Positions 16,261 to 55,029 of a stretch of 64,000 nt of DNA are shown here, piece after piece. The position numbers were made by a program, and so were the translations under genes. Location of the stretch: NCBI GenBank assembly GCA_024663395.1, contig JANFAH010000001.1, positions 6,324,001-6,388,000 on the forward strand. The letters run 5' to 3'. This DNA is from Pisolithus tinctorius. Taxonomy: Eukaryota; Basidiomycota; Agaricomycetes; Boletales; Pisolithaceae. How positions within the stretch are numbered: position 1 is the first letter of the stretch; each line of letters starts with the position of its first letter. The notes under the pieces are model-generated. The model was not told the origin of the DNA. It searched no databases and saw only the letters and a list, made by a program, of their open reading frames with translations.

Positions 16261-16264
16261 GCGG

Positions 16265-18120: not shown

Positions 18121-18124
18121 GCAG

Positions 18125-19206: not shown

Positions 19207-19210
19207 ACGG

Positions 19211-21059: not shown

Positions 21060-21063
21060 ACGG

Positions 21064-21465: not shown

Positions 21466-21469
21466 CCGG

Positions 21470-23325: not shown

Positions 23326-23344
23326 TCCACCGGCAAGAAGAAAT

Positions 23345-23362
23345 GCAATCGTCCCCGATTGC
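23345..23362 (-). promoter_or_regulatory. Hairpin with GGGGAC loop before E3 3' LTR
   Basis: In sense GCAATC-GGGGAC-GATTGC, 19 nt from the LTR. The stem differs from that of E1 and E2 while loop and spacing agree. Confidence 0.62.
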
Positions 23363-23452
23363 GACCAATGCAGGGAACCCAGGGAAAACAAAAAGAAAAA
23401 TGAAGGAAGGAATGACAGGCAATCAGTATCGTAAGAAATGAAAAAAGGGAAA

Positions 23453-31016: not shown

Positions 31017-31097
31017 AGTAGCAAGATATCAAGTGGGTTTTTAGAAGCAAGTTTCAATAGGCTGAGTGAATAGGGTTCTTGATCCAGGAATAACCAC

Positions 31098-31115
31098 CCC
31101 TCGCGGTGGGCTCCA
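31098..31115 (-). promoter_or_regulatory. E3 primer-binding site
   Basis: TGGAGCCCACCGCGAGGG in sense, 2 nt after the LTR. The same word follows the 5' LTRs of E1 and E2. It would pair with a tRNA beginning GCCCACC with U73; I cannot name the tRNA. Confidence 0.65.
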
Positions 31116-31117
31116 GA

Positions 31118-32973
31118 TGTGAGTCAAAGTGTGGAAAGGCAGTGGGAACCAACCAAAACCAACACAAAAGACAAAAGTAGAGCGAGTGGTGGTGTGCCTC
31201 CGTGGAACCTGGAGGGCAGAAACCTGAATGTGGGGGGGGACTTCAAGTAGAGGTGCTCCTGGCGCAAGTCGATGACGAGTTATGCAGGAGAGGATGAATG
31301 AATGCCGATTGAGAAGGGGACGCTGAACAGAGCGAAGGTGTTCAGCCGAAAGGCACTTCAAGTAATGGACTTCAAGTAAATGTGCTCCTTGCACAAGTCG
31401 ATGACGAGTTATGCAGGAGTGGGAGGATGACTAAGCAAGACTTGCTGACTAAGTGGGGATGGAGCTTCAGATAATGGTGGTAGATAGACTCTTCCGAATG
31501 AGCCTCAACTACCAAGGATATGAATGATGACAGATAGACCCCTTCGTGGAGCCTCAACTGTCGACGATGAGATAGGCACTGAACTGATTGCTGGACTGCT
31601 TCTTGATCGATTCTGATTGATTCTCGGTAGCTAAGTACATGGGGGTTTATATACTGAGGGGGGAGCACTGCTTGTGACAAACAAGGCACAAACACTTGGT
31701 AAGTAATGAGTAAGGACTGAGTAATCATGATGAGTAAGCGAGAAACGAAAAGTAAGCAAGCAAAGAAGATTGGTAAGTATTGGCAATGAACGAGTCAAGG
31801 ATAGTCAAAATATCACAGAATGAGTCAAATGGAGTCAGAAACTGAGTAAGCGCACTGATATCACATTAGGGGGTGGCGATGCAAGTCAGATCTCGGCGGA
31901 GACATCTCTAGATCCAAAGATGGCATGACAGATGGATGGTGTTTCCAGATAGGGAAGTATTAATTCCAGAATTGAAGGGCATGAGTCAGGCGTCAAAGGG
32001 GGCTAGGGCGTTGGGGGTCTGTGGGGCAATGAGAGCATACGCGATCACGTCTCCCACCCTTCCATCCTCTCAGCAAAGTTAACAAAAACTTCATGGACGG
32101 GGCTCTGATGGAGGAGGAGGAGAAGGGGGAACGTCTTCTGCTGGATCTTGCAGTAAGAAGGCAAGATGCATGTCATACTCGTCATGAATGCGATCAGGGA
32201 GGCTGGAGGACAGTAGATTATACTGCAGCTGTCGCAATGCGGGAAGAATGATGGACGAGACTGGAATAAAGACGGTGCAGGGAGCAGGGAGGAACGATCC
32301 ATATGCTTCATCAACTGGGGGGACTGAAATGACCACATAAGACCTTTCTAACCGAGTGACAGACCTGAGGCGACCAAAGAACGTCCTTCTGGAAGTCATA
32401 CTGACAAGGAGAACACGCTGACCAAGCTGCATGGGACGAGATGGGGCTGACAATGACGGGATGAACCAGGGGGCTTCAGGACGGAAGCTGGTGGGAACAC
32501 CTGGCAGATATACGTAGCCACTGTCTCTGGCAAATGAGACAAGCGAGATGATCGACGAAGAGGTGGCCATGATTGATGGACTTAGCGAAATGAGCGTCTG
32601 ATGGATGGAGTGCTGTAGAAACGTGCAGGGTGCGAGGATCCTCTCCAAATTTGGAAGGAAGAATCGTGGGGCTGAGCACTTTAAGCGAGCATGGGAACGG
32701 AGTCGATATCTTTGGAAATGGTGGAGATATGACAGAAACCGGAATGCCGTACACGGGCGCTAAAAACCTTTAATGCGCGCTTAACTCGCTTCCTCTTTTC
32801 TCTTTAGCACTGACGACTCGATCTTGTGCGAAGGATGACTGTTCACATCCAACAGTCTTTCTACGCATGAGGCCTTTAGTCTTCATCTGCATGCTTGGGC
32901 ATTGCGCGCAACTCGTCAACGAGTTAGGCAGAGTCAGCTGTAACCATGTCCACAACACCTTTGGTGTGTGACA
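31118..32973 (-). repeat. E3 right LTR X (5' LTR in sense)
   Basis: 1856 bp. TATATAA on the minus strand at 31647-31653. Palindrome cores at 31266, 31395 and 32910. It differs from the left LTR at about eight CpG-type positions. Confidence 0.93.
32091..32648 (-). CDS. Open frame inside U3 of LTR X, copy 4
   Basis: 185 codons in the 5' LTR of E3, almost the same as 22443-23000 and fully open. It lies upstream of the transcription start of that LTR, so only read-through or an internal promoter would express it from here. Confidence 0.35.
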   Translation of the reverse strand: MERILAPCTFLQHSIHQTLISLSPSIMATSSSIISLVSFARDSGYVYLPGVPTSFRPEAPWFIPSLSAPSRPMQLGQRVLLVSMTSRRTFFGRLRSVTRLERSYVVISVPPVDEAYGSFLPAPCTVFIPVSSIILPALRQLQYNLLSSSLPDRIHDEYDMHLAFLLQDPAEDVPPSPPPPSEPRP

Positions 32974-32977
32974 CCGG

Positions 32978-33400
32978 GGCGAAGTCTGGTGGATGGGTTG
33001 GAAGTGGTTGGAGACCAGCGAGCGGGTCGTCAGGCAGGCTGCGCACAATGCAGTATTCTTCTGCCATCGGGGCAGGTACCGTCCGAACCTTCTTGGCAAC
33101 TGGCTTGTAAACGAGGGTGCGAACCGTGGGATCTAGTCGATAAACGCTGCCAAATGTGGCTATAGCAGAGGGGTTTAGTATTGTCTGAGTGGAAGAGAGG
33201 AAAGTGAAAGCAGGCGAGGGTATTCCGGTGGGTATGTTCCGTGGTACAGGTGCCGCGGGCGAAGAGAAGTTCGTTGAAGTGAAGGCTAGGGATGAGACAG
33301 TAGGGCTGAGGAACGGATAACAGCGGCTAAATAGGAAACAGGACGTCTTAGTAGGCTCTCCCCGACCGTTTGGTGGATCATCGATATTTAAAAACCCCAT
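32978..33400 (-). pseudogene. E1 pol, N-terminal leader
   Basis: First piece of E1 pol, opening at ATG 33400 (MGFLNIDD) in the -1 frame from gag-protease. It ends at the E3 insertion with PTHPPDFAP. It contains the YKPVAKKVRTVPAPM block that precedes RT in all three related elements here (compare YKPVVRKVRPVP in E2). Continuation is at 21465. Confidence 0.87.
33388..33397 (-). promoter_or_regulatory. E1 -1 frameshift site
   Basis: The sense gag-protease frame reads TGG GGT TTT TAA. GGGTTTT (33397-33391) is a canonical X XXY YYZ heptamer directly before the stop, and pol continues in the -1 frame. Confidence 0.7.
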
Positions 33401-37008: not shown

Positions 37009-38004
37009 TGTGGGACACGACTTCTGGGAAGCATGCGACTAGAGGAAGGGTGAAGGGAGAATTCCCTAGGATCATCCCAAGGGGTACTGTGTGGAAGGAG
37101 AGGCCAAGAAAGGGCTTAGAAGCGGTGGGGAAATTCGAGTGAGAGTTGCGGAATTTAATTCCAGGCAGATGTAGACGTGTGAGGAACAGCAAGATGGGTA
37201 TATGAAATTCCGAGGGGTCACTACACATCAAGAGGAGCAAATTCGAAGCAAAAGAGACACGGGATTAGGTGTGCAGGGCTGGAGGACACAGGAGACATGA
37301 AGACCTCTGGGGACACTGAAGATGCAGCAGACTCTATATACGCACTTTAGACTCTAGAAACTCTCGAACTCGCAGAACACACACAGATAGCGACTCAAAA
37401 GGTGGGTGGTATATTTCCGACATCATGGCAGAATTATATAGTACAGGGAAAGTAGGTACGAGTCGGAGTAAGGTGGGGCGGGAAAACTAAAAGACCGGAA
37501 AATAAAGGAAGGGACATCAGATGTCAGTGAAATACAGATGCACGTGAAATAGACCGTTGGGTAGTAGATGAGAGCAAGAGCGGGACAATGGTAAGGGGTA
37601 TCTTCCAACAGAACGAGAGTATGCATACAAGTGGGAGGTGGAGCTGAGTGGCACAGGAGGGCAGAGTGTAGTGTACTGGCACGAAGTCCAGCTTGTGGAA
37701 TTTAGGGTGACAGGGGAATCCAGAGTTTTTTAGAGGAAAGTGGCACGGATGACTGGTGACGTGGCTGAGGGGAGGCACAGCTACTGAATTCTGGATGACT
37801 CTGCGCGAATGCGGAATTTCCGGATCAGCATTTTGATGACTGAGTGACATGCAGAAGGTCGGTAGAAACTCCGAAGGTGACAGGGGTTGGGAGGAAACAC
37901 AAGGTCATGAGTGGGAAAAATTCCGAAACAGGCTTGTCGTAGAGGCCTGCGGAATTTAGTGACAGATTCCTGTTCCAGCCTCAGGGAGTATACAGCTCCC
38001 TACA
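37009..38004 (-). repeat. E2 LTR, left (3' LTR in sense)
   Basis: 996 bp, sense ends TGTAGGGAG and TCCCACA. The sense 5' end folds as GGGAG-loop-CTCCC. It contains about five exact CGGAATT sites (near 37149, 37206, 37811, 37920, 37959). Confidence 0.92.
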
Positions 38005-38024
38005 CCTCCCGGGGACTTCGAATG

Positions 38025-38042
38025 CTGACCATCCTCGGTCAG
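38025..38042 (-). promoter_or_regulatory. Hairpin before E2 3' LTR
   Basis: In sense CTGACC-GAGGAT-GGTCAG, 20 nt from the LTR. Same stem as E1; the loop is changed from GGGGAC at two positions. Confidence 0.58.
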
Positions 38043-38266
38043 ACCGAACTGAGGCGTGACAGAGATGAGCGGAATTTCGGCAGACGTTACATAACAATGA
38101 TGGTGCGAGGTCGGAATTCTGCCTCATGCAGAATGGAATTCCGCATTGTACGAGATAGTCCTGCAGAATTTAAACTCACCCAGAAGGTGGCTCACCGCTC
38201 GTCAAACTCTCCCGACAACACCCTCGCTCACCTATCCTGCTCCCAACGTTTCATCCACCCGTCGAC

Positions 38267-39516
38267 ATGCAAGCTTACTCGATCCATGACGCACGACCTG
38301 TGTTCAGCATGAGGGACCAGGCCATTACCTCGCTGTCAGCAGCTCTGAGGCACATCAGGGTGCTAATTGACATGGCACCGCAACCTGAAGAGAGCCTGGA
38401 GGCGATATACGAGTGGGTGGGGGACTGGGACCAGACCTGGGTGAGTGCACCAGATACTCGTGCCACGCGATGTGCCAACAGATCTCCAGGCTGGGATCTA
38501 CTCGTGGTGGAGGTATGTCGACGAGAACAAACTCTCTATCCCAAAGGTGCGTGACACCAACCTGCACGACATGACCGAGGAATCCATGATACAGCAGAAC
38601 GAGGTGATCCCAGGGGTCATAGCCATAGCGGATCTTTGTCGGCCAGAAGGGCAGCGGAGATTCCACATCGATGACGTCTTCGAGGACTACCAGGAGCGGG
38701 TCAAGGAGAGAGCGCGTTTGGAGGCTGAGAGGTTGGCCAAGGCACCGTCAGTGCGTACCCGGGGCCAAACAGCAAGAGAGGAGGGCCAAGACCACGTGCC
38801 AGAGGACACTGAAGGACACCCGTCAAGAGGAGCTGCACGTTCAGCAGGGGGGGGCTCTGGTAGCACGAGCAAAGGAAAAGGGAAACAGAAGGTGTGTTCC
38901 TTGTCCTTGACAACCCTGAGCATGAATGCTGACTTCAATGAAAATTCTGCAGGCCACCAGCAAGGAGGACGAGCTGGCTGATGATGTTGATGATGATGAG
39001 GGTGATGTCGACGATGACGAGGGTGACGGCAAAGGTGAACCAGGTCCTTCTGCAAAGGGACCTCGCGTGGCTGGAGACAACGAGCCCTGCAAGACGTGTG
39101 CACAGGCGAACCTCAGGTGCATCGGGGAGCCAGAATTGTCCTGTAAACAGTGCCAGAAGGCGAAGCGCAAGTGCTCGCGCTCTCATGGAGTAGGGAGAAA
39201 GGTGAGTACCAAACAGGTGAAATTCCGCAAGGGGAACAAGCTGACACCACCTTCAGTGAAAGAACTCTGGTACCGTTGGGGAAGCAGGCCCGTCCCACAA
39301 ACGGGTCAAATTGATTACGACTTCGAAGGTGGCCCTGGCAGAACCTGCAACCAGGCCTGCTAAGAAGCTTACACTGAAAATCCTGGCTCGCAAATGGCAG
39401 CCTGATCCGACCCCCACACACTCCCCTATGCCACAACCAACCCCTTCCCCCCACGATCCCTCACCATCACCTCGTCTCTTTTTCCATGGGGCTACTCCAA
39501 TGCCTGGACCTTCGAC
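38267..39516 (+). pseudogene. E2 antisense gene, Zn(2)Cys6 protein, 5' part
   Basis: Starts at ATG 38267 after a pyrimidine-rich leader. Exon 1 (38267-38440) ends WVGDWDQTW. A 49-bp intron 38441-38489 joins it to AGIYSWWRYVDENKL. Exon 2 runs to 38891. Intron 38892-38952 has a TGCTGAC branch site and CAG end. Exon 3 (38953-39201) carries an acidic run and then a perfect CX2CX6CX7CX2CX6C cluster, from CKTCAQANLRC to CQKAKRKC. A third intron starts at 39202 and ends near 39259-39265. A Lys/Pro-rich exon follows until E4 breaks it at 39516. Likely a nuclear DNA-binding protein that recognises CGG-type sites, as Gal4-class clusters do. The coding sequence itself is undamaged apart from the insertion. 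Confidence 0.8.
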
Positions 39517-39968
39517 TGTTACATTTCACCCCTGACTTTTCCTTTTCTGCTGTACGTTTGCCTTGTTTGTGATCCGTTGGACTTAGTTTCCTTTTGAGCC
39601 GTCTTCTCTCTGATCCGACAGCTCTCTATTCCCACCACTAGCGTTACTGGCTCGTTACATGCTTAGGACATGTGTCGTCATTGCTCAACCAATGGCGTAG
39701 TTACCTCGGTACATGCGGATGCCTCATGGTCTGTTTCTGTGTAGTATTTAGACTGCTGGCTCAAGTCCTGGAAACCCAGACTTGAGCTGCTCAATTATAC
39801 GCAGCGTTCTCAGAACTTCACCCTCAGTGTCCCTTACCAGGACCACTCTTACCGGCATTATCTTAAATCCTCTGTCGTTTACAGAGGTTACTGAAGCCGT
39901 TTGCTCAGTAGAAACCTTAGTCTGCGATTCAAGCTCTCCCTACGTCTTGACTTCGGTCGAGCATAACA
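39517..39968 (+). repeat. E4 5' LTR
   Basis: 452 bp, TGTTACATTTC to GAGCATAACA. Many CpG dinucleotides are preserved and shared with the 3' LTR. Confidence 0.93.
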
Positions 39969-40140
39969 AAAGCTCAAGTCTAACAGCCTTTGGCCGAATT
40001 GGTCACTGCTTAGTGAACCACCACGAACCCCCGAAACAACCGACGTTGGGCGCCATTGCAACCCACCCGTGAAGAATCATCATCTGACGAAGAACAGGAG
40101 AGTACTGTCACTGACACCTCCGCCCCCACTGCAGATTACG

Positions 40141-41474
40141 ATGTCTGGCTCATTGTCGAAGGCACTGGTTGGCAATGCCACCAAAGCCACTGAACTGAAG
40201 ATTGGCGCTGTAGGGAATAAGTACTCCCTACTAAGGTGATTTAATTATTTTATCTTTTCTATTGTGTTTTTGCTTTGATTTACATTAGTGATACTTAGCC
40301 TACCTTTGTGGCGCATTTTTGGTAGCTTAGTCAGCATTTTTTGCGCACTAGTGTAGGTCTACAGTACAAAAAAAAAGGAGAAACGAGACTGCGAGACAGT
40401 GAAATCGAAGACTGTGAACGAAAGACAGCGAAAGCCCTCACTGAGGCACCCCTAGACGACCCTCCAGACGCCATTATTCGCTCATTCCCTACTCCATTCG
40501 TTCTGACCAACTCTATCCACTCCTTCACCCTCTTTCCTCAATCCAAGCTCAGAGTCCCTTCGGGTCGAACTAGACCCATTTCTATCAAGCCCTAGGAGTC
40601 CCCTACACTCCCTAGGCTCGCTATCTACCTAACTTACAGCGCTCCATCTGATTTTGATGGAAACCAAAAGAACGCCATGAGCTGGCTGTACTCTGTACAG
40701 ACCTACCTCTTGGTCAACGAAGAATTGTACGACTCTGACACCAAGAAGGTTGTTTATGTGCTGTCATACATGAAGAAAGATGTCGCCCGCTCCTGGGCTG
40801 CCACCTTCCAGAAGACATCTTTGGAAAAGAACCCCCCAAGTTTTGGCACCTTTGCTGATTTCATAAAAGATTTCAAGGCTTCTTTCACCTCTGCGGACAC
40901 TGCAGGTACTGCTATCGCCAAACTACGTACCCTAAAACAAAAAGAATCGGTCGAACAATATATCACCGATTTCCGAACTGCCGCCACTGACTCTACCATC
41001 ATGGAAGATGTCGCTCTGATCGAGTTCTTCTCCCAAGGACTCAAACCTTTCATCGCAAACCGAATCCACATGGTGGAAACCACTCCCACCAAAATCACTG
41101 AGTGGTACACCCAAGCACAGAAGTTCGATGCTAAGTGGAGAAAGGTCAATGAAACCTTTGGAAGAAAAGAAAAGAAAATGTTCCACCCTAGGAACAACTT
41201 TGCTGAAGAAAAAGATCCTAACGCCATGGACGTGGATGGAGTAAGACTCTCCAAAGAAGAACGAGACCGTCACATCAAAGAAGGAAGATGTTTTGGTTGC
41301 GGAAACAAAGAACATCTCTCCCGAGAATGTCCAGACAAAGGAAAAACCCCCCAGAAGAAGGTGAAGAAAATCCACAAAATTGTGGAAGTAGAAGAAAGCG
41401 ACGATGAAGAAAAAGTCACCGGTCCATCCGTCGCTCTGGTTAACATTGCTAGAGCTCTTGGAAAGGATTTTTGA
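40141..41474 (+). pseudogene. E4 gag, split by solo LTR Y
   Basis: Gag opens at ATG 40141 (MSGSLSKALVGNATKATELK), is cut at 40208 and resumes at 40643. Without the LTR and one GCGC the frame is continuous (KIGA then PSDFDGNQKN). A capsid-like region follows (AMSWLYSVQTYLLVNEELYD, FIKDFKASF, YITDFRTAA, FFSQGLKPFI). The zinc knuckle CFGCGNKEHLSREC fits CX2CX4HX4C. The frame ends GAT TTT TGA at 41474, and pol continues in the -1 frame across TTTTTGA. Gag coats the RNA in the particle. Confidence 0.88.
40209..40638 (+). repeat. Solo LTR Y in E4 gag
   Basis: 430 bp, TGTAGGGAATAAG to CTTACA, with GCGC duplications at 40205-40208 and 40639-40642. The start folds as GTAGGGA-loop-TCCCTAC. Same family as 54026-54452. 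The internal part of this element is not in the window. Confidence 0.92.
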
Positions 41475-44400
41475 ATGGGAACTCTGTGTTGACGCCAGAT
41501 GTTCCCAAAACTAAGGACAGTTTAGTTTCTGTTGCACCTGTACTTGTAACGTCTACACCAGAACGTACTATGCAGATTCCCATCTCCCTCTATGCATCAG
41601 AAACCACTCAGAAAGTCGTCAACACAACTGCTCTGGTTGACTCCGGAGCAGAAATTTCTTGCATCGACTGGGGTTTTGTGTGAAAGCACCAAATCCCCAC
41701 TCAACACCTCACCGAACCCATCCTCGCAAAGAATGCCGATGGAACCCAAAATTCAAAAGGAAGAATATTGTTTTCCGCCACCCTCTACTTTAAAGTTAAA
41801 GGACTTGTTCACCGGTCCTTTTTCCATGTCATTAACTGTGGGACGGAAAACGTCATTCTGGGTCTCCCCTGGCTCCAGGAAAACAATCCCATTGTGGACT
41901 GGAGAATGGGCACGTTGTCTATCGACGAGAAAACCGATAGATCAAAAGAGCTAAGATGCAACATCTCTTCTGTTGCCATCGAGGAACCAACCGTGAATCT
42001 TGTGTCCCCTGCTGAAAAGAAAGGGATAAACAAATTCATGGATTACGAAGAACCAGAAGACGAAACCATCCGAGCACACTTCGTGATGTCGGTTGGAAAA
42101 CTTGTTGAAGAAGCAAAGAAGATTAATCCCAACAATAATCTTCTTCGAAAAATCACTACGGCTACGGAATTAGCCCAAGAAGAACACAAGAAGAAACCAA
42201 AAGCTGTCCTCCCTGAGGAGTACAGAGACTTCGCCTCGGTTTTCGAGAAACCATCTGATGGAGTTTTACCCCCATCATGACCATACGACCATGCCATAAA
42301 CCTTGTAGAGGACTTCGTCCCCAAGGTGGCCAAGGCATACCCTCTCTCTCCCTCTGAGCGAGAATCCGCAGAAAAATTTATCGAAGAAAACCTTCGAGAA
42401 GGAAAGATCTGCCCCTCAAAATCTCCCCAAGCTGCCCCCTTTTTCTTCGTAGGAAAGAAAGATGGTTCCCTACGACCCTGCCAAGACTACAGGTACCTGA
42501 ACAAAAATACGGTGAAGGATGCATACCCCCTTCCCCTCATTTCAGACCTTGTAGACAAACTAAAGGGAGCCACCGTCTTCACGAAGATGGATGTCAGGTC
42601 GGGCTATAACAATGTCCGCATCAAGGAAGGAGACCAATGGAAGGCAGTGTTTATCACACACAAAGGACTTTTCAAACCCACCATTATGTTCTTCGGTCTC
42701 TGTAACTCCCCTGCCACCTTCCAATGATTCATGAACGACTCTTTCAGAGATATGATCGCAGAAGGATGGTTGGTTGTCTACATGGATGACCTCCTCATCT
42801 TCTCCGATGACCCCGAAGAACACAAGAAAAGAACCCGTTGTGTTCTCGAACGAATGAAGGAACTCTTCCTTCCCTTGAAATTGGAAAAATGTCACTTTGA
42901 TCTGACTGAGGTGGAATACCTTGGGATGATCATCAAGGAAAACACCGTCGCCATGGACCCTGTCAAAGTCCAGGGCATCGCCGACTGGCCTGTCCTGAAG
43001 AAGGTCAAGGATGTGCGATCCTTTTTAGGATTCGCAAACTTTTACAGAAGATTTGTCCCCTACTACTCGGACATTGCATGACCACTCATCGACCTTACCA
43101 AGAAAACAGTCAATTGGAGTTGGTCTAAGAAATGCCAAGACGCCTTTGATCTTCTCAAAAGAATCTTCATTGCACAACCGACTCTTCGAATGCCTGACAC
43201 CTCTCAGCCATTCGCAATTACCACAGACACGTCCAAGTATGCAACAGGAGGAATCCTCCTTCAAGAAGATTCGAATGGACAATGGCAGCCCTGTGCCTTC
43301 CTGTCCCAATCGTTTAACCCTGCAGAAAGAAACTATGACATTTATGACAGAGAACTGCTAGGGGTTATTCGTGCACTGAAATCCTGGAGGCATTACCTCC
43401 ATGGATCCCCACTCCCAGTTAAGGTCTTCACAGACCATAAAAACCTAACATATTTCAAGTCACCTCAGAATCTGAATCGTCGCCAGGCTTGCTGGCTCCT
43501 AGACCTCGCAGACTTTGATCTGCAGCTAGAACATGTTCCAGGCAAAGACCTGGCCACACCAGATGCACTCTCCCACCGACCCGATCATATCCCTGATGAC
43601 GACGAAGATAACAAAGGAGTCACCCTTCTTCCACAAACCCTGTTTGTCAATCTTATTGACACCAATCTCACTCAGAAGGTCGCATCATCATCCACAAAAG
43701 ACCCTGTGGTCCAAATGGCACTTCGTGCCATCGAAAATGTCGATATGCCGCTTCCATTCAAGTCGCATCTCTCTGACTGGAAGTTCGAAAGTGGAGTTCT
43801 ACTCTACAGAAATCGGGTGTACATCCCTGATGATCCCACCCTCTGACAGACTGTCGTGTCCAACCACCATGACCACCCCTCTGCTGGACACCCTGGTATC
43901 CTGAAAACTCGGCAACTCGTTTCATCTGAATTCTGGTGGCCTGGACTTGCATCCTTTGTCCGAAAATACATAGAAGGCTGCGCTACCTGTCAGCAGAACA
44001 AAGTTAATACACACCCAACGACACCACCCCTTACGCCTATCCCCTCCACCTCGACCCGCCCCTTCCAACAGATCTCTTGCGATCTGGTTACTGACTTACC
44101 CATTTCAAACGGCTGTGATTCCCTTTTGGTCGTGGTAGACCATGGGCTTACAAAGGGGGTAATTTTATCACCCACCAAGAAAACTGCCTCCGCCGCTGAC
44201 ATCGCAACACTGTTTTTCAAAAAAGTCTACTCCCGCTTCGGGTTGTATGACAAAATCATCTCGGATCAAGGGCCCCAGTTCGCCTCGGCCTTTGCCAAAG
44301 AACTTGCTTCCCTCCTAGGATACTCCCTCGCCCTGTCCACAGCATACCACCCTCAGACCGATGGAGAAACCGAATGTGTGAATCAAGAAGTGGAGACCTA

Positions 44401-46177
44401 TCTCCGCATCTTTTGCCAAAACGACCCCACCTCGTGGGTGGACAACCTACCTATGGCCGAGTTTGCGCATAATCACCATCCACACTCCGTCACCCATCAA
44501 TCCCCGTTCTACCTCATGTACGGGTATGAACCGAAACCACTTCCATCCCTGATCACAGAAACCCACCTTCCTGCCACCGAGTCTAGACTCAAGGAACTCA
44601 GAAAAGCTAGAGAAGAAGCCCTTGTGGCCCACGACCTAGCCAGAAAAACTATGAAAGACCACTCGTCATGACCCTTCACCCCGTTCCAGAAAGGTGATAA
44701 GGTTTGGCTAGAAGCACGCAATTTGAAATGCTCTTATGAAAATAGGAAACTGGCACCCAAACGAGAAGGACCCTTCACAATCTCCGACGTCCTGTCTCCA
44801 ATTACATATCGCCTCACGATTCCCTCACGATGGAAGATTCATAACGTCTTCCATGCTTCTCTCCTATCACCCTATCGCGAAAATGACGTTCACGGACTGA
44901 ACTTCCCGGCTCCACCACCTGACCTAATCAACGAGGAAGAAGAATACGAAGTTGAGGCGATAGTCGGCCATAAAAGGTCCGGCCGTGGACATGCCTTCTT
45001 AATCAAATGGAAGGGTTACCCTTCTTCCGAAAACTCATGGCAGAAAGAATCACACCTTGAACACGCAGATGATATGCTCTCCACCTATAAGAAACGATTC
45101 CCCAAGGACTTCCCCCTCAAGAAACAACCCACTCGACATTCCACTCGTACCGTCAGAAACATCACTCTTGAAATGCCTCCTTGTCGTTACACCTACCCCC
45201 GTGAACCCTCTCGCCACCACACCCCGTTCACTCGTCGACAGAGACAACCCGCCAGTGATCAGATGATCACTTCTTACCAACTCTTCGTCGCTGACCCCAC
45301 CGTCATCGGCACCGTCTACCACGAAGTGGACGAGGACTCTCCACTTGACCTTGTGTATCACACCACTATCCAGGCCCTTCGGCTCGAAGAACTCTCCCGC
45401 TATGTCAACCACCAGAATCCCCTCCTTTCCCCCGCTCGCACTATCTTAGGTGAAATCGCTCTCCAACAGGTTCCCTTGCTTCTTAAACTTTTTGATGTCC
45501 TTGGAGGTGCCGACCTCATTTATAACGTTCGTCAGTATCCAACATTGATAGCACCTCCCCTGCCTGGGTCTAGAAGACCCTCGACTGCAACCTCTCCTCC
45601 GGTTTCCTCTGCGTCGTCCTCCCCTCCCACACTGTCGTCGTTGTCGTCTTCCCACTCATCCCATTCTCTCCAAAGGGCCGACAGACCTCGTGCCTGCTGC
45701 TTGTCAGGCCCCAATCCTCAACCCTGCGAGTCTCATGACTCCCCATCTGAGGTAGATCCTGAGACCGCCTTTGGCATCTCCCGTGCTGAACTTGACTACA
45801 CGTTAAACATTGTCGAAACCCTTGCACAGTTGCCGCCAACTCCTGTGCTAAACGCCTTAACCGAGTTCGACATACCTCTTACTCCGTCTGATCCACGCTA
45901 TCGTCAAGCGTGTTATGTCTGCCGCCGTCTCGGCCATATCCACGTCAACTGTGGACTGTACGAATGTCCCCTTTGCCATGCCACTCATCCTGGGCATACT
46001 CAGGCCCAATGCCCTTCCATCCGCCCTCGTCGTCCTTTACAGGACAGAATTGCTACCCCCGCCTTGGTAGATGATCGTACCCTCGTTGGGAGCAAGGACA
46101 ACGACTTGTACAACGATGACTTTGATTTTGACGACTCCGCCATCAGCAATATGACCGGAGAGCCTTATGGAGAGTAG
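41471..46177 (+). pseudogene. E4 pol (protease-RT-RNase H-integrase-chromodomain), six TGAs
   Basis: A single frame from 41471 to the TAG at 46177 with no frameshift, broken only by TGA at 41681, 42278, 42725, 43079, 43844 and 44669. Protease: ALVDSGAEISCID and [22 protein letters not shown] and catalytic YMDD. RNase H: TTDTSKYATG and DRELLGVI. Integrase: HHCC (HPGILKTRQL ... CATCQQ) and DDE residues in SCDLVTDLP, ISDQGPQF and GETECVNQEV. A chromodomain spans about 44940-45100 (EYEVEAIVGHKRSG, FLIKWKGYP). C-terminal: a CX2CX4HX4C-like knuckle (CYVCRRLGHIHVNC). At each TGA the family expects Arg, consistent with CGA to TGA. Confidence 0.9.
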
Positions 46178-46202
46178 TTGAAGTCAGGGACTTCAACGCT
46201 TA

Positions 46203-46214
46203 GAAAGGGGGTAA
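46203..46214 (+). promoter_or_regulatory. E4 polypurine tract
   Basis: GAAAGGGGGTAA directly before the 3' LTR: an ordinary plus-strand primer, unlike E1-E3. Confidence 0.75.
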
Positions 46215-46666
46215 TGTTATGTTTCACCCCTGACTTTTCCTTTTCTGCTGTACGTTTGCCTTGTTTGTGATCCGTTGGACTTAGTTTCCTTTTGAGCCGT
46301 CTTCTCTCTGATCCGACAGCTCTCTATTCCCACCACTAGCGTTACTGGCTCGTTACATGCTTAGGACATGTGTCGTCATTGCTCAACCAATGGCGTAGTT
46401 ACCTCGGTACATGCGGATGCCTCATGGTCTGTTTCTGTGTAGTATTTAGACTGCTGGCTCAAGTCCTGGAAACCCAGACTTGAGCTGCTCAATTATACGC
46501 AGCGTTCTCAGAACTTCACCCTCAGTGTCCCTTACCAGGACCACTCTTACCGGCATTATCTTAAATCCTCTGTCGTTTACAGAGGTTACTGAAGCCGTTT
46601 GCTCAGTAGAAACCTTAGTCTGCGATTCAAGCTCTCCCTACGTCTTGACTTCGGTCGAGCATAACA
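46215..46666 (+). repeat. E4 3' LTR
   Basis: 452 bp, identical to the 5' LTR by eye except the TATG/TACA site near its start. Confidence 0.93.
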
Positions 46667-46671
46667 TCGAC

Positions 46672-47014
46672 CCTACCAGCCCCTGTCGACAAACTGCAAA
46701 TAGAGTTCAAGCCATTTTTCGCAATTGCGACTGGCTTGTTAAACGAACCAGGAGGCATTGAAGAGTCAGTCCAGAGCGACGCTCCTTCTGGCACTGAAAT
46801 TCCGGAGGTCGAAAACCCACACAAGCAGTCAACAGCAAGCTTCGTCGAACGTTTGCGAGTGCTCGAGGCGAGAGCCGAGGACGAGGAATTCAAGCTGGAG
46901 CAGATATACCGGCTGCTGGAGATGTTGGCGAGGCGGGTAACACATCGGATTGAGACTGCACGGGCTAGATGGGAGGAGCTGCGAAGGTTGAAGGACGATC
47001 TCCGGGACCTGTAA
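46672..47014 (+). pseudogene. E2 antisense gene, 3' part (coiled coil)
   Basis: Continuation of the gene at 38267 after E4. Removing E4 and one TCGAC restores the frame (PGPST then LPAPVDKLQIEF). The remaining 110 or so codons end at TAA 47014. The C-terminal half is a charged heptad-like helix (SFVERLRVLEARAEDEEFKL, RIETARARWEELRRLKDDL), a probable coiled coil for dimerisation as in many zinc-cluster proteins. No stop or frameshift. It converges on the 3' end of E2 pol about 250 bp away. Confidence 0.8.
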
Positions 47015-47264
47015 ATAGCGTACTAGAACCTGCGGAATATTTGTACTCGTATGTCCCGAATGTGAAAGAGTCTTTTGTGTGTTGGTATTAGTACTACAGT
47101 AAGGAAATGTAAGACTTCTGAAGGAAAAGTAGTGCGGAATTTTTTTTTTTTTTTGACTTTGTCTCTTTCATGTGAGCGGTGTGGAATATATATATGAGAT
47201 GAAATGGGTATCGATAAAAGAAAGAAGAGAGAAAGAAAAGAAAAGAGGTAGAGAGAAGGACAGG

Positions 47265-48161
47265 CTACTCATCTGACTCGTCCAACAGGATGCCAGCGAG
47301 CGTAGGGTCTGGGAACGCTTCGTCTTCAAGATGATCCAGGTCTTGTGGGGAAGCACCAGTCAGCTGGGTGACTTTGATACGAGTGTTATTCCTCGGGAAA
47401 TAGGGGTACAGACGAAAGGCAGCGAAATGGAATTTTGAGACTGTGCCATCTAATTCTGCAAGGATGTACGAGCCACCTTTAGTGCATCTGACAACGATCA
47501 TAGGCCCTAGGTAGCGCGGTTTTGTTTTCCAGTTGAGTTCTAGTTCGATATGGGAATTCCGAATGAGGACAAGCGACCCTGGTTCAAAGTTAAAGTCCTT
47601 GATGGAACGTGCAAAACGATCGATGAAATCCTTGGCCGAGGCAAAGCAGGATTTTAGGACCAGATCATGGATGCAAGCAAGGTCCTCGGGGTGTTTCTGG
47701 AGTTGACGAGCACGGTGAGCAACGAGGTCTGTAGTTGAGTAAAATTCTGCCTCGAAAGGGGCTAAGAACGTCGCTTCGACCAGATCAAAAGGGAGTCTGG
47801 GTTCAACACCGTGAGCCATATAGAATGGAGAGAACCTGGTTGCCTTGTGGACCGTAACCCTTTCTGCCCAAAATACCACAGGGGCAACTTCCGACCACCT
47901 TGACACTTCCCCACTACAACTTTTTACCATCACCTCTCTTACATCAAAATGCTGCCATTCGACAACTCTGTTAGCCTGCGAGTTATAAGGAGAGATGCGT
48001 ATGTGACGAATTCCGAAGGTCTTGGAGAGCCAGTCGAGAGCAAGAACGTATGGTCCCCTGTTATCTGTGACAATCTCCGCAATGGCACCCAACGGCACAG
48101 AATCTGTTCGAAGATGAACTTTCCAATGGACTTGCCTGTCTCTGCACAAAGCATAGCCCAT
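47265..48161 (-). pseudogene. E2 pol, C-terminal integrase part
   Basis: Minus strand. Carries the second and third catalytic residues (IVTDNRGPYV, NRVVEWQHFD; the usual VER is VEW), then the GPMIVVRCTKGGSYIL module and an acidic end (LLDESDE). A frameshift near 48110 separates it from the first half of integrase. It would complete cDNA integration in an intact copy. Confidence 0.85.
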
Positions 48162-49315
48162 TCGGGGTAACTGGTGAGTGAACAGTGGGCTTGGGTGACG
48201 TAGCGAAAGCCGTTCGACTTTGGCATTAAGAACGTGTCCATATATGCCTTGTAAAATAGGGGTTCAGGAATAGCAACAACTGGCGGGATATGAATGTGGT
48301 CCAAACGGTGGATCTGGCACTCATGGCATGATTTAACATACCAACGGACGTCCTGCTCTAGCATGGGCCACCAAAAGTGAGTCAGCAAACGCATGCGAGT
48401 TGAGAAGATACCCTTGTGCCCTAGGTCATCGTGGGCCTGGCAGAGAATCCCAAGGCATTTTTGTGAGGGTACCACTAGCTGATGCCGCCCCTGGGGATCC
48501 TTCCTCCACAGTTCTCCTCCTTTCACGAAATACCGAGTTGCAAGACACACTAGGCTTTCCAATTCCGCCTCTCCCAACCCTTCTGGCATTTTCTTCATCT
48601 CCAAAAACTCCTTTACCACTCTCATCCTCTCTTCCCTCTGTTTTGCTTTTTCTGACCTCGGAATTTCGGTCTTGAGGACTCCAGGCATCGATTCTTCAGC
48701 GGTAAAGATTCCTAGACTCTGTGACAGGGGGAGAGATGAGTCTGACATGATGCTTGGAATTTCCAAGAGGTAAGGTTGAGACTCGAAACACGCTTCCCTA
48801 TGATTCAAGAGCTCGACTGCGAAAGCCCCACACTCATCTATCCAATCCTCATAGTCCTCATCTCCCTCCTCATCTTCTTCTGCTTTCAGCCTCCTCGACA
48901 GTCCATCTGGCGCTGTGTGCTTGTGTGCTGGAACATGTACAAGCTCGAAGTCGAATAAGAGAATTCTGGTGATCCAACGATTTATGGTCGCGTTAGGCTG
49001 TAGATCGGGATTGTTAATCATCCCTTTGATATATCGTGCATCCACCTTGACAACTAAATTCCGCACACCGAAGATATGAAGTTGGATGTCATGCAAAGCA
49101 CAGAACAGTCCAAATAGCTCCAGCTTAGCTTGGCTGTAGCGACGTTCACGATCATTGCGGGTTATCGAGCCAAACCTAGCGGGGTAGTGTCTTCTGTCTT
49201 CCCCTTCCTGCATGAGGAGGTACCCGACAGCGATGTTAGAAGTGTCGACTGCTAAGATGACCTTCCTTTTGGAATTATAGTCGATAGTTTGCAACGCAGG
49301 GGACGAGACGATCGC
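48112..49315 (-). pseudogene. E2 pol, RNase H and first half of integrase
   Basis: Frame with RNase H (VILAVDTSNIAVG, AKLELFGL, VKVDARYIKGM), the end motif HVPAHKHTAPDGLSRR, and the HHCC region of integrase (AHDDLGHKG ... CHEC). The first catalytic Asp is in YMDTFLMPK. It is bounded upstream by TGA at 49319 and downstream by the frameshift near 48110. Confidence 0.85.
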
Positions 49316-49318
49316 CCG

Positions 49319-50874
49319 TCAAAGATACTCCATGGCTTCCCTATGTTCGTCACGGAATTCGAAGGGGACATCCTTCTTGGTCAGTTCAACGAGGGGACAG
49401 GCATGTTTGGCAAAGTCTTTGATGAAGATCCTGCAGTAAGAGCAGAGACCTAAAAATCTGCGTACTTCAGTAACATTTGCGCAATAAGGCCAATCTTTAA
49501 TCTTCTGGACTTTAGTTTCATCCAGAATTCTACCCTCGAACGACACCTTATGCCCAACCACTATGATGGATGGCGCAGCGATGACGCATTTCTTTGCTGA
49601 GACGGTGGCTCCTGCATGATGTAGACAGCGTAAGACCCAGTTGACATTCTGCAGGTGCTCCCAGATGAAGCGTCTAATCCTGGAATTCTGTGGAATCATT
49701 TCATAGGTCCCATCGGGATTTTGGTAGCGAGATTTGGGGCCTTTAATGGGACAGTTGTCAATAAACGGGATGGTGACTTCCGGAATTTCGTCTTTTAAAA
49801 TCCAACAGATGTCTCCATGGAAAATTTGGACGGCATTCATGTAGCCCATAGGAAGTTTGGTGAGTCAAAGAGTACCTATAGGAGTTTGGAAGGTAGTGAG
49901 GTTGCAGTAATCGTTGTGTATGGTGCGATGATCATATCCGACCATAAGATCTAAAATTCTGTAGACCGAATGACAAGCGAAGGCTTCAGCAATCGAATCG
50001 ACGAAGGGGGGAACGGCTGAGTCCTGGATAGAAACAGCATTTAGAGGTTGTAAGTCATGTACGAGGCACAGAGATTTTCCATCCTTCTTGACTATGCAGA
50101 ACCATTTTGAGCGGTAAGACAAAGTAGACGGTTCATAAACCCCCATGGAAATCTTTTCCTTGATGATATTAATGACTTCACAGAAAATAGCAGGAGGAAT
50201 GGGAATATTCTGCTCGATCCAAGGCTTGTGTGCTAGTGTAGGTATCTTCAGGGGCAGGAACATGTCTTCTCGAAAGGTCCCTCTTTCCGAAGCGTCCCAA
50301 GCAAAGGCATCTTCTTGCTCCCTGACTAACCACTGTACTAGGTCTAATTCCGTAGGCCAAAGGAACCTTGCCGGGTCCAAATCGAGCTCGTCAGCTCTTT
50401 CCTGAGTAAACCTGGAACCTGGCACAAACAGAGGGGGATGAGTAGGTAAAACAGGCAGATCTGTGAGTGGGTCTTCGGCCTCCCAACACTCTACCCAGAA
50501 TTCTGCTGGCATCGATGTCGGTACCGGCCTCACCTTCCTCACTACAGGTTTGTACTTTAAGACATGATAAACGGGATCGAACTGATAAGTAGAGCGTAAG
50601 GCAGAAATTGTCAGTGGAGAAATGGTAGTAGCGGTCAAGAACAAGAAAGGATCAGTCGGGGAAACAGAACTGGTGTCAAAGGGGTCGACTGGGGGCATAA
50701 TGTTGCCTCGTAAGTCGTAGATAAAGGCCGCAGCGGAATTTATGACAGTGTCTGTGGGTAAAAACGTGGAAGACTTCAAAGGGTATAAAGGCGGGTCAGA
50801 AACATAAAGTGAACACATGGAGAAGGCGCAGTCCTGGTCTCCTCACAGATTGTACGAGTCCTCGACTGATACTA
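49319..50874 (-). pseudogene. E2 pol, reverse transcriptase part with mutated active site
   Basis: The -1 frame from gag-protease opens at the GGGTTTT site. TGA codons lie near 50842, at 49865 and at 49319, each where related elements have Arg or a charged residue (GTL-stop-LTKLP against GPHRLTTLP in E1). The leader has YKPVVRKVRPVP. RT contains YRSKWFCIVKKDG, HDLQPLNAVS and ILDLMVGYD. The catalytic FIDD is FIDN (codon 49756-49754, GAC to AAC type), which would abolish polymerase activity. Confidence 0.87.
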
Positions 50875-50881
50875 AAAACCC
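50872..50881 (-). promoter_or_regulatory. E2 -1 frameshift site
   Basis: The sense gag-protease frame reads CAG GGT TTT TAG. GGGTTTT (50881-50875) sits directly before the stop, as in E1, and pol is in the -1 frame. Confidence 0.7.
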
Positions 50882-53578
50882 TGTTCGGGTGGATTCATGT
50901 GGTGATGCATTTGTTTTCGCGTGAAGAAGTCTTCTTCATCTTTGGAATTTACGAAATGTGGAAGGGGTTGCAGTCTGTTGCGAGGTCATGTCAGAATTAA
51001 AACTTGTCTCCCGGAATTAGGGTTGCGGATTTCTAGAGACTGTTCTCCATCAGGGAAATCATGAAGGACACTGGAGAGTAGGCAGAAGAAGGGTCAACTG
51101 AGAAGTAAGTCAAAAGGTGCACGATCAACGACCTGGATTTGTAGATGAGCCTCAACGTTTCCTATGCGCAAAGTGGCATTCTCTATGACCCCAAGGGTGC
51201 TTTCTTTAGATTGGTTAGCGGCCTCCAGAGTCATGGTCATGTCAGTACGGAGAGGGGCCTCTAAGGCTTCCCACAACTCCCATTGCAAGGCCACTACCTG
51301 GCATCTGCTGTCCAAAATACATTTGACATGGAGTTTGTCCATCAAGATCCCATCGACAGCACGTAAGGGAGCTGTAGCGAGGCCCACGCACTTCCCTTCT
51401 GTGTCTCTGACCCAGTACTGCTCATAGGATGCCCAAGCAGCCAAGGGAGTCACGTCTGATGTGGTTTCTAAACTCCCAATAGTTATCTTCTTCATCGCAG
51501 CTAGTTCTCTGATCTGCTTGCGAATCTCCGGGCTGACAGCTAATAGATCTTTAGTAGAGATTTCCATTTTTGCGTCTAAGACTTGGTTTACGATCCGCTT
51601 GGTCGCCACAGCCTCATCAAAACTGCTTTGGTAACAGAATTGAGGTGCGGAATTTGTAGTTGGCTTAAGTTTCCGGAGGTCTGTAAGATTAGGAGCAACC
51701 AGAGTTTTTCCAGCTGTTGGGGCTTCCAAAGACGAGGCGGGGTTAGCTGGAGTGGAATTACTGACTGGGATAGGAGGCACTGGCATGTTGGCCAACGCTG
51801 GGACTGCTAGTGCCAGCCTTTGACGACGAACCGGGACTTCTACACTGTCGAAGTGAGCTGTCTTCTTTTTCTTGATAGCATTCTTCAACTCTTCTACCTG
51901 CACATAAGCCCTTGCTAAGGCACATTGGTCTTCTTCGTCAGCATCCTCCTCTAGGTTTTTGTCGACTAGATAGGAAGAGGGGTGTAGGTCGACTTGGTAT
52001 TCCGAAACATCTTCGTTGCTGAAGAACATTGTGCTGACAAGATGGGGAGGAGTTTCATGCCTGCAGGATGAGGTTGACTGCTGGCTGGGTCGCTGAACTG
52101 AGACAAGGTTTGCCGAGGCAATGATTGAGTCGTGCATGGCAAGGTAGTTATTGATCTTTTCCTTGAAATTACAACCTGCAGCTGTCCTAGGAATATCAGA
52201 GCCATCTGGCATGAAAACTCTCCCTCCAATCAGGGAGCATTTCCCAGCTTGTACGTATTCGTGACACAGCGCACACTCTGCAGTTCTGTGCCCATCTGTT
52301 CCTCCGCAGAAGAAACACCGTGGATCGAAGGAACGATGGAATTGTCCTTCTTGACCTTGTTGGGTGGGCAGGGTAGAAACAGGCTGCTGAGCGACATGGA
52401 CATACTCTTGCTTCAGGATAGTAGGAACAGCTGGCAAGGAAGATGGAGTGGAATTCTGGGGAAACAGTGCCGACAAGTCTGGTTGAGGGAGGTTCTGTTT
52501 GGCCCCACTGAGGAGGTAGTTGGCATGTTTGTAGACAGTATTGAACTTCCATGGTTCATCGATGTCATGATCTAGGTCAGAGAGTTGCAATCGTGTGAGC
52601 AAGGAATTCCGAAACCTCAGGGGAAACCCCTCAAGGAATTTCTCGTTGGTGTAGTCCTCAGGGAGTTTCTTCTTCTTCTGGACGAGGCTGAGGATACGTC
52701 GGAATTCTCGGACGTATTTCCCAAGATCTTCCAGTGACTCCATAGGCTTCTGAACCTGATGGTAGAGTAAAGTTTCGAGGTCGGCTTTGGTATAATGACG
52801 ATCTTTCACCGAGGCACCTGGATAGTAGTTCAGGAGCTCTTTGGAGAAAGCGTCCCAATCATCGAAGCCATCGGTTGCAGCATCTAAGGTGGACCAAAAT
52901 TCTGCCTCATTGTGGTCAGTGTAACGAATGACCCAGTGGATCTTATCTTTTCCGGAAACGAGACCAGCGTCGAGACAGAGTTGTTCAACGTCTTCGAGGT
53001 AGTGGGTGATATCTTCAGTATGCCCAGAAAACTTCAGGGCTTTGTTGGAACCCCTGAGCAGCATATCTTTTGCTCCAGACATTATGCGAGGTGGTGCAGG
53101 GATCTGGCTCGGAATTTGGGGAATGACGGGAGTGGAATTCGAGAGAGTCGAGACAAGAGTATTCTGTATGGGTATTTGGGTAGAAAGGGTGATAGCAGAA
53201 TTTGCGATTAGAGAATAGGAAGGAAGGAGAAGCTGTTCAGCAGCTAGTTCTGAATCACTGGATGACAAGGGCGACGAAGGAGTCAGTTCTGAAAGGGGCA
53301 AAAGTTCTTGACGGTCAGAGGGAGGATCAAAAGGTTCATCAAAGTCGAAACCTCCTGGAAACACTGGGTAAAACACTGGGGACTCTGGGCTCTGAAAGAT
53401 CTCGTCTAAACCAAGATCTGAGTCTGACAAGTGTGACTCTGAAATATCTCTAGGATCAGCTACCGGGATTAGGATTTCTGATGAAGAAATAGATAGTCTG
53501 TGGAAGGGCTCTAGGAGCTCTTCAAGTTCGGTTCTTTGACAAGTGGGTCGTAAGGATCTCCTTTCCAGATCTACAGAC

Positions 53579-53596
53579 CCCTCGCGGTGGGCTCCA
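53579..53596 (-). promoter_or_regulatory. E2 primer-binding site
   Basis: TGGAGCCCACCGCGAGGG in sense, 6 nt after the LTR. Same as E3. Confidence 0.65.
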
Positions 53597-53602
53597 AAAC
53601 GT

Positions 53603-55029
53603 TGTGGGACACGACTTCTGGGAAGTGTGCAACTAGAGGAAGGGTGAAGGGAGAATTCCCTAGGATCGTCCCAAGGGGTACTGTGTGGAAGGAGAGGTCG
53701 AGAAAGGGCTTAGAAGCAGTGGGGAAATTCAAGCGAGAGTCGCGGAATTTAATTCTGGGCAGATGTAGACATGTGAGGAACAGCAAGATGGGTATATGAA
53801 ATTCCGAGGGGTCGCTACACATCAAGAGGAGCGAATTCGAAGCGAAAGAGACACAGGATTAGGTGTGCAGGGCTGGAGGACACAGGAGACACGAAGACCT
53901 CTGGGGACACTGAAGATGCAGCAGACTCTATATACGCACTTTAGACTCTAGAAACTCTCGAACTCGCAGAACACACACAGATAGCGACTCAAAAGGTGGG
54001 TGGTATATTTCTGACATCATGGCGGTGTAGGGAATAAGTACTCCCTACTGAGGTGATTTAATTATTTTATCTTTTCTATTGTGTTTTTGCTTTGATTTAC
54101 ATTAGTGATACTTAGCCTACCTTTGTGGCGCATTTTTGGTAGCTTAGTCAGCATTTTTTGCGCACTAGTGTAGGTCTACAGTACACAACAAAAAAAGGAG
54201 GAGAAACCAGACTGCGAGACAGCGAAATCGAAGACTGCGAACGAAAGACTGCGACAAGCCCTCTCGGAGGCACCCCTAGACGACCCCTAGATGCAATCCT
54301 CCACTCTTTTCATCACTCCATTCCTTCTGACCAACTCCAGTCACTCATTTGACTCTTTTTCACTGATCCAAGCACAGAGCTCCTCTGGGTCGAACTAGAC
54401 CCTTTCCATCAATCCCTAGGAGTCCCTAGGATCGCTAAATACCTAACTTACAGCGGAATTATATAGTACAGGGAAAGTAGGTACGAGTCGGAGTAAGGTG
54501 GGGCAGGAAAACTAAAAGACTGGAAAATAAAGGAAGGGACATCAGACGTCAGCGAAATACAGATGCATGTGAAATAGACCATTGGGTAGTAGACGAGAGC
54601 AAGAGCAGGACAACGGTAAGGGGTATCTTCCAACAGAACGAGAGTATGCATACAAGTGGGAGGTGGAGCTGAGTGGCACAGGAGGGCAGAGCATAGCGTA
54701 CTGGCACAAAGTCCAGCTTGCGGAATTTAGGGTGACAGGGGAATCTGGAGTTTTTTAGAGGAAAGTGGCATGGATGACTGGTGATGTGGCTGAGGGGAGG
54801 CACAGCTACTGAATTCTGGATGACTCTGCGCGAATGCAGAATTTCCAGATCAGCGTTTTGATGACTGAGTGACATGCAGAAGGTCGGTAGAAACTCCGAA
54901 GGCGACAGGGGTTGGGAGGAAACACAAGGTCACAAGCAGGAAAAATTCTGAAATGGGCTTGTCATAGAGGCCTGTGGAATTTAGTGACAGATTCCTGTTC
55001 CAGCCTCAGGGAGTATACGGCTCCCTACA
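53603..55029 (-). repeat. E2 LTR, right (5' LTR in sense), split by solo LTR Y
   Basis: The original 996 bp is interrupted at 54026-54456. It differs from the left LTR at many CpG-type sites. Exact CGGAATT sites lie near 53745, 53801, 54453 and 54720. Confidence 0.92.
54026..54452 (+). repeat. Solo LTR Y in E2 right LTR
   Basis: 427 bp, TGTAGGGAATAAG to CTTACA. GCGG duplications at 54022-54025 and 54453-54456. The left E2 LTR shows the empty site near 37428, as GGCAGAATTATA after CpG decay. Confidence 0.92.

Follow-up and report, generated by a model that had tools for sequence, protein, structure and literature searches.

A spliced antisense gene and a dispersed CGGAATT word in E2, a Gypsy-type retroelement of Pisolithus tinctorius, as a possible self-directed regulatory system

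The window, by which we mean the whole 64,000-nucleotide stretch of Pisolithus tinctorius DNA that was analyzed (assembly GCA_024663395.1, contig JANFAH010000001.1, positions 6,324,001 to 6,388,000 of the forward strand), contains E2, a Ty3/Gypsy-type element with long terminal repeats (LTRs) that occupies window positions 37009 to 55029 on the minus strand and has TG...CA ends. Between its pol region and its 3' LTR, E2 carries a spliced gene on the plus strand, running from an ATG at 38267, which lies 262 bp inward of the LTR, to a stop codon at 47012 to 47014. The presence of such a gene had been proposed in an original prediction made from the window alone, and it is borne out here. The antisense gene is real, belongs to E2, and is under purifying selection, and the word CGGAATT is dense in E2 and, in the window, almost confined to it. 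As the best explanation of the whole we tentatively put forward that the antisense protein reads this word over its own element to counter silencing. For years, antisense genes placed like this one, on the 3' LTR side of pol, have been reported with no known function, and here one of them has a candidate target.

A search of the assembly (92.5 Mb in 221 contigs) with the antisense gene gave 42 matches at 40 places, the window included (best 40 of 145 candidates scored), and a search of the same genome with the E2 LTR gave 41 matches (best 40 of 413 candidates scored). In the 29 other copies fetched with the gene (L010 to L038), an LTR was found upstream in 28 and an opposite-strand pol downstream in 27, in one of these over just 51 bp. 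Because these copies had been picked by the antisense gene, its presence in them proves nothing, and the count was started anew from the integrase, scoring a gene or protein match on the opposite strand no more than 4 kb beyond the integrase end. Counted in this way, the antisense gene stands beside at least 83 of the 95 integrase places that are 68 to 100% identical to the C terminus of the E2 integrase (83 is a lower bound, and a second piece of one integrase place was not counted). Among the 12 misses is the copy of the window itself, because E4, another Gypsy element that has inserted into the gene, moves the gene past the 4-kb limit. At integrase places with 55 to 61% identity the gene was found beside 1 of 26, and that one is a damaged copy of the E2 family (L030). 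An ordinary host gene lying next to a repeat is excluded by its presence beside so many integrases. The layout recurs in a sister family, whose antisense protein is 43 to 48% identical to that of E2 and whose integrase is about 80% identical (main match in locus L069). An opposite-strand integrase was found in 23 of the 30 sister loci that were taken with 1.5-kb flanks, and also in L069; the remaining 7 gave no integrase match within the 1.5-kb flank. All relatives of the antisense protein among the matches listed come from P. tinctorius and P. orientalis, and none from outside Pisolithus (two protein searches with 56 and 84 matches, best 7,995 candidates scored in each, and a search with the N-terminal part at E values up to 10, with 49 matches).

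The structure of the gene was read from 30 aligned copies, the window's and the 29 others. Both of the introns that had been predicted have GT..AG borders in all 29 of the other copies, and a third, which had been missed, brings the number to three (Table 1). Intron lengths differ among copies, and the three-intron reading of copy L018 is identical over 467 amino acids to the predicted protein P0001 (M404DRAFT_20576 of P. tinctorius Marx 270). The coding sequence had been described as open on both sides of E4, which does not hold once the third intron is removed, since the first codon past it (39257 to 39259) is TGA; because of this codon and the E4 insertion, the window's copy is not intact. 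An uninterrupted frame from ATG to stop is present in 11 of the 29 other copies (467 to 481 amino acids). The remaining 18 are broken, and in 11 of these the first stop is a TGA at either of two recurring codons, such as decay after insertion would give. Whether the gene would prove absent or broken in most E2 copies had been named in advance as the question that could overturn the prediction, and the answer is mixed, in that the gene is present in most copies and broken in most of those that were aligned.

Selection was assessed among 10 intact copies by the ratio of nonsynonymous to synonymous divergence (dN/dS); L020, whose protein equals that of L019, was left out of this set. For the antisense gene the ratio, about 0.2 between copies of different subgroups, was 0.16 to 0.29 in the 36 of 45 pairs with a dS of at least 0.1, and it was noisy in the nine closest pairs (0.18 to 2.43). 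The integrase of the same copies gave 0.09 to 0.54 (37 of 45 pairs, those with at least 8 synonymous differences), so that the antisense gene is constrained about as tightly as the integrase. Of the five other frames, read as a wrong-frame control on six pairs, four gave a dN/dS of 0.83 to 2.11, and the reverse frame that shares third codon positions gave 0.26 to 0.33, as expected. A chance open reading frame is excluded by these frame controls, and the antisense gene is under purifying selection, in agreement with the expectation of a dN/dS below 1 over E2 copies. Copy number, presence beside the integrase, dN/dS, and the frame controls together make the observation more than chance. The dS values of the antisense gene and the integrase are unequal in some pairs (0.255 and 0.055, respectively, for L011 and L022; 0.075 and 0.252 for L011 and L014), which suggests an exchange of antisense module and pol between E2 lineages.

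CGGAATT is the commonest 7-mer of E2, with 29 occurrences in 10,473 bp; E4 has 1, and the 44.9 kb of the window counted outside E2 and E4 has 0. A dinucleotide shuffle of E2 gave an expectation of 1.05 (maximum of 7 in 500 shuffles), and the dispersed CGG sites that the original prediction had pointed to are real and far stronger than could be shown at that stage. The z score of the word in E2 is 23, and in no other stretch tested does the leading 7-mer exceed 6.8. In pol the word occurs 9 times versus 0.98 by synonymous shuffle (maximum of 6 in 5,000). The E2 sites, 17 forward and 12 reverse, occupy every one of the three codon phases in gag and pol. Among the flanks of 17 listed sites no relationship is apparent, although TG is mildly preferred ahead of the word and T behind it. 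The shuffles, the unrelated-looking flanks, and the phases exclude the word as a product of tandem repeats or codon use, and its occurrence in both orientations makes a signal at the RNA level unlikely.

The word is likewise abundant in other copies. The 29 E2-family copies have 410 in 122.2 kb, and in the sister family 181 were counted over the 111.4 kb of 31 loci, among them L069. Several of these loci duplicate one another (L043/L044, L048/L049, and L062/L063 look alike), and L050 overlaps L069. Four fresher copies drawn from both families have 23, 19, 13, and 12 words, the 23 lying within 4.2 kb, versus 0.36 to 0.60 expected. Fresher copies were chosen by eye as those with many words and few decayed ones, so that their counts are upper-end values, and the sets differ between analyses (13 and 9 copies for the density of CGGAGTT, 11 for density by place, 7 and 8 for conservation, and 13 for CpG decay). 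The word of the sister family is CGGARTT, with CGGAGTT at 2.1 per kb in fresher sister copies versus 0.67 in E2. Three old E2 copies (L021, L037, and L038) and seven sister loci have 0 or 1 CGGAATT and decayed forms instead. The decayed forms CAGAATT and TGGAATT occur 23 and 13 times in E2 and 0 and 1 times in E1, a related element of the window. Loci with other Zn_clus proteins (L001 to L008) have 1 CGGAATT in 24.9 kb.

Density varies with place. Across 10 fresher copies (L029 was dropped from the 11, the end of its gene not having been found), the word reaches 11.5 per kb in the leader between the 3' LTR and the antisense ATG, 9.8 in the spacer that follows the gene, 8.6 in the introns, 5.5 in the LTR with its flank, and 4.9 in the integrase, and it is lowest, at 0.77, in the antisense exons. 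Between the two families the word is kept in 303 of 709 copy-pair comparisons versus 2,072 of 21,215 for other CG-containing 7-mers (7 E2 and 8 sister copies in a gap-free alignment, with CpG decay allowed), comparisons that are not independent of one another owing to shared ancestry. Several positions have the word in one family only, which indicates that sites are gained and lost even though many are present at any time.

Two relatives of E2 in the window provide a comparison. E1 is a Gypsy element on the minus strand (13578 to 36901, with gaps) whose reverse transcriptase (RT) pieces are 53 to 62% and whose integrase is 54 to 55% identical to those of E2, and a third related Gypsy element, with an RT 42 to 49% identical to that of E2, lies within 23326 to 31111. 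The integrase frame of E1 ends about 250 bp from the E1 LTR, which leaves too little room for the antisense gene, and in three E1 loci the antisense frames found within 1.5 kb past the integrase reach 61 to 141 amino acids at most. The element within 23326 to 31111 gave no match to the E2 and sister antisense proteins, the sole test made there. CGGAATT is absent from E1 (8.1 kb) and from the third element (7.8 kb), and the three E1 loci, the window's own (L070) and two further copies, have 0, 1, and 0. Gene and word therefore co-occur in two families, and both are undetected in two relatives.

The antisense protein has the CX2CX6CX7CX2CX6C cysteine pattern and the acidic region that had been predicted for it, and a helix at its C terminus, where the prediction had placed a coiled coil. 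Zn2Cys6 proteins have the spacing CX2CX6CX5-12CX2CX6-8C, which is present in the intact E2 copies and in the sister protein P0037, and CGG is the known core of the sites of these proteins. Whatever reads a word that selection keeps element-wide and in either orientation must recognize double-stranded DNA, and because Zn2Cys6 proteins favor CGG, the E2 antisense protein is a candidate reader. We think it probable that the protein binds the word. A site of comparable type is known for Pho7, which binds TCG(G/C)AxTTTxAA (PMC5559640, available portion). E2 and the sister family each carry a spliced accessory gene opposite to gag-pol for a nuclear-type protein, and in the scheme that we propose this protein would bind CGGAATT (CGGARTT in the sister family) across its own element. 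Selection would keep the word in dozens of places, some of them in pol but most in the leader, spacer, introns, and LTR. The chromatin of the bound element would be kept open, or be re-opened, against host silencing, and through the dense sites upstream of the antisense ATG the protein could also adjust the expression of the gene that encodes it.

That anti-silencing is the purpose of the binding is a tentative suggestion by analogy; it is preferred, with plain auto-regulation next, because VANC21 is the nearest worked-out case. The VANC proteins belong to the VANDAL elements of Arabidopsis, which are DNA transposons. As described in the available portion of the source, VANC21 binds YAGTATTAY in the introns, the intergenic parts, and the ends of VANDAL21, and copies lose their methylation over the whole length through its action (PMC5735166). 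The original prediction had compared E2 with VANC in its logic, and the resemblance is supported by a gene of the element's own together with an over-represented motif: in both cases the protein is element encoded, a short motif is over-represented in its own family, and protein and motif both differ between related families (PMC5735166 and PMC10398659, available portions). The E2 sites are densest in non-coding parts and fewest in the antisense exons, which is also VANC21-like (PMC5735166, available portion). There are differences as well. VANC targets are often tandem repeats in non-coding DNA, going by what is available of these sources, whereas the E2 words are scattered among unrelated-looking flanks and occur also in pol. 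E2 is moreover an LTR element, its gene is antisense to gag-pol, and its product is a cysteine-cluster protein; none of 28 relatives of the antisense protein matches any Pfam family, the VANC domains DUF1985 and DUF287 included, at an E value of 0.01 or less. In its most detailed form, which must be put more cautiously still, the proposal is that a permuted-Zn2Cys6 antisense protein may open the silent chromatin of its own copies through a word that selection has spread even into coding DNA, that this arose independently of VANC, and that specificity may be splitting (CGGAATT versus CGGARTT). If this is true, sequence-specific anti-silencing has evolved in fungi too, in a retroelement and with an unrelated protein.

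A number of results weigh against this proposal. The Pfam Zn_clus model (PF00172) scores 13.8, 18.6, and 20.5 bits for three pieces of the cluster, with a cut-off of 21, and the original prediction of an ordinary Gal4-class cluster is not supported. In the best-matching stretches, the first half of the cluster aligns to profile positions 15 to 33 (two pieces) and the second half to positions 2 to 17 (one piece); comparison with LAC9 and Pho7 in PDB shows the same half swap with weak scores (E values of 4.7 and 9.6), and a B-box model gives 14.6 bits for one piece, about as good as Zn_clus and also under its cut-off. From these weak but agreeing matches we infer a permuted Zn2Cys6 cluster with the basic half second, and a cluster in this swapped order would be an unusual DNA-binding module. 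It would resemble Gal4-class proteins such as Pho7 and LAC9 in its six-cysteine spacing, in a basic half whose last cysteine is preceded by K/R, and in the CGG-type word, and it would differ from them in the order of its halves, in its score under the Pfam cut-off, in having no other Pfam domain found, and in being encoded by a retroelement. The 28 whole antisense proteins, as noted above, match no Pfam family. The structure model is weak (mean predicted local distance difference test score [pLDDT] of 54.7); it is better in the helical N-terminal part, in a pair of short helices around the cysteines, and in a 38-residue C-terminal helix. A Foldseek search of PDB with this model gave no match at an E value of 0.001 or less, and a profile search of PDB sequences with the antisense protein gave nothing convincing. 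In 15 older copies, CpG had decayed at 127 of 238 sites in the word and at 2,145 of 4,068 other CpG sites (P = 0.89; the test used 28 of the 29 copies, L019 being left out). The CpG of the word thus decays like any other, and no lasting local protection is visible, a result that is compatible with transient opening in a few active copies yet gives no support. Finally, the sites inside pol depart from the VANC pattern. As a separate observation, another multicopy family of Zn_clus open reading frames (L002, L003, L005, and others) has frames of 254 to 275 amino acids at six places and matches the profile in one stretch.

It may instead be that the antisense protein is an ordinary auto-regulatory transcription factor, which would bind the LTR and leader and set sense and antisense transcription in the manner of HBZ, the sites in pol being spare or enhancer-like. 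We regard this as somewhat unlikely. Site density does peak in the leader next to the antisense ATG, with more sites in the LTR, and HBZ is itself a spliced antisense regulator that starts in the 3' LTR (PMC1459196, available portion); however, promoter control needs neither the 9 sites that pol has in 3.6 kb, spread over all codon phases, nor those in the introns and spacer. A host factor or the host silencing machinery might bind the word while the antisense protein does something else, and the indirect link between protein and word and a cluster under the Pfam cut-off would suit this. Such a division of roles seems to us quite unlikely, as the two families with the gene also have the word, neither was detected in two related elements, E1 thrives without the word (at least 88 genome matches to its integrase), and the word is kept by selection between families and should thus be of help to the element.

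We give still less credence to a role at the level of double-stranded complementary DNA (cDNA) or the pre-integration complex, where a coat of antisense protein on the word would serve nuclear import, protection from self-integration, or target choice. Both orientations and the spread over the whole element suit a double-stranded DNA substrate, and some plant antisense proteins are nuclear (PMC7264820, available portion), but this explanation does not predict that introns and spacer should be dense and antisense exons depleted. An excess of the word that arose by chance from base composition, from repeats, or from codon use is effectively excluded: E2 is a repeat family whose copies have sites in common by descent, but both shuffles, the flanks of the 17 listed sites, the z score, and the extra conservation between families speak against it.

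As far as the literature searched goes, the layout is already known and the combination of a cysteine-cluster protein with a dispersed word is new; among the open-licence papers listed, judged by title and opening of the abstract, none deals with a gene or word of this sort in Pisolithus or with an antisense zinc-cluster protein carried by a retroelement. The E2 gene resembles the antisense accessory open reading frames of type aORF-3R in lying between pol and the 3' LTR in antisense orientation, in being present in most copies, and in being conserved like pol. A retroviral parallel is HBZ of human T-cell leukemia virus type 1 (HTLV-1), for which we know of no dispersed word. Like the E2 gene, HBZ is a spliced antisense gene from the 3' LTR side with a regulator as its product, but it is a basic leucine zipper (bZIP) protein according to the available portion of the source (PMC1459196), and the E2 protein has no bZIP match in Pfam. 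Known antisense open reading frames between pol and the 3' LTR include those of maize Grande, rice RIRE2, and Retand (PMC7264820 and PMC11963269) and brtn of Botrytis Boty (PMC8365987). In the available portions of these sources, their products are suspected to be of a regulatory or DNA-binding type, and the TRP28 proteins of Retand are predicted to bind DNA (PMC11963269). The E2 protein differs in that no TRP28 or SMC domain was found in it with Pfam (TRP28 being confined to the Retand lineage in what is available of the source) and its gene in having three introns, and a self-directed DNA word like that of E2 is not described for the others in those portions.

The positions of the features of E2 are given in Table 1. 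The two E2 LTRs are 94 to 95% identical in a self-alignment of the window. Pfam RT_RNaseH and Integrase_H2C2 match E2 at 47939 to 49318, and the RT and integrase C-terminal pieces have no Pfam match yet are similar to related elements; the C terminus of the integrase (IN) ends near 47268 in the minus-strand pol. Stops had been claimed for both gag and pol, which is right for pol, which is broken, and wrong for gag, which has a long open frame. E4 had been recognized correctly as an insertion in E2; a 5-bp duplication flanks it.

Table 1. Features of E2 in the window
Feature	Position	Strand	Remarks
CGGAATT words, E2 outside E4	37009..55029	both	29 dispersed: 17 forward, 12 reverse
3' LTR of E2	37009..38004	-	TG...CA; aligns with right LTR
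Leader, 3' LTR to antisense ATG	38005..38266	+	Richest part in CGGAATT
Antisense exon 1	38267..38440	+	Starts with ATG at 38267
Intron 1	38441..38489	+	GT..AG in 30/30 copies
Exon 2	38490..38891	+	Helical N-terminal domain, well conserved across subfamilies
Intron 2	38892..38952	+	GT..AG in 30/30 copies
Exon 3	38953..39201	+	Acidic stretch and six-cysteine cluster, halves apparently in swapped order
Intron 3	39202..39256	+	GT..AG in 30/30 copies; CGGAATT site at 39221
Exon 4, first part	39257..39516	+	Opens with TGA in window copy
E4, chromodomain Gypsy element within exon 4 of antisense gene	39517..46666	+	Target duplication TCGAC
Exon 4, second part	46667..47014	+	C-terminal helix; stop 47012-47014
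E2 pol fragments (RT, RNase H, IN)	47268..50842	-	Pfam, frames, related elements
E2 gag region	51097..53598	-	834-amino-acid open frame; 30% identical to corresponding E1 region
5' LTR of E2	53603..55029	-	~400-bp insert at about 54024-54426

A sequence of about 400 bp is shared, at 89% identity, by the E4 leader (40203 to 40602) and the E2 5' LTR (54020 to 54426) and is perhaps a solo LTR of another family. E1 is interrupted by copies of a repeat of about 1.86 kb (16262 to 18126, 19208 to 21059, 21466 to 23325, and 31112 to 32984) and by the element within 23326 to 31111. The repeats, which span 16262 to 32984, have GACGAGTT near both ends in opposite orientation, like the subterminal repeats of DNA transposons. 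At 57266 to 58132, a 289-bp unit is present in three tandem copies that are 88 to 94% identical to the first.

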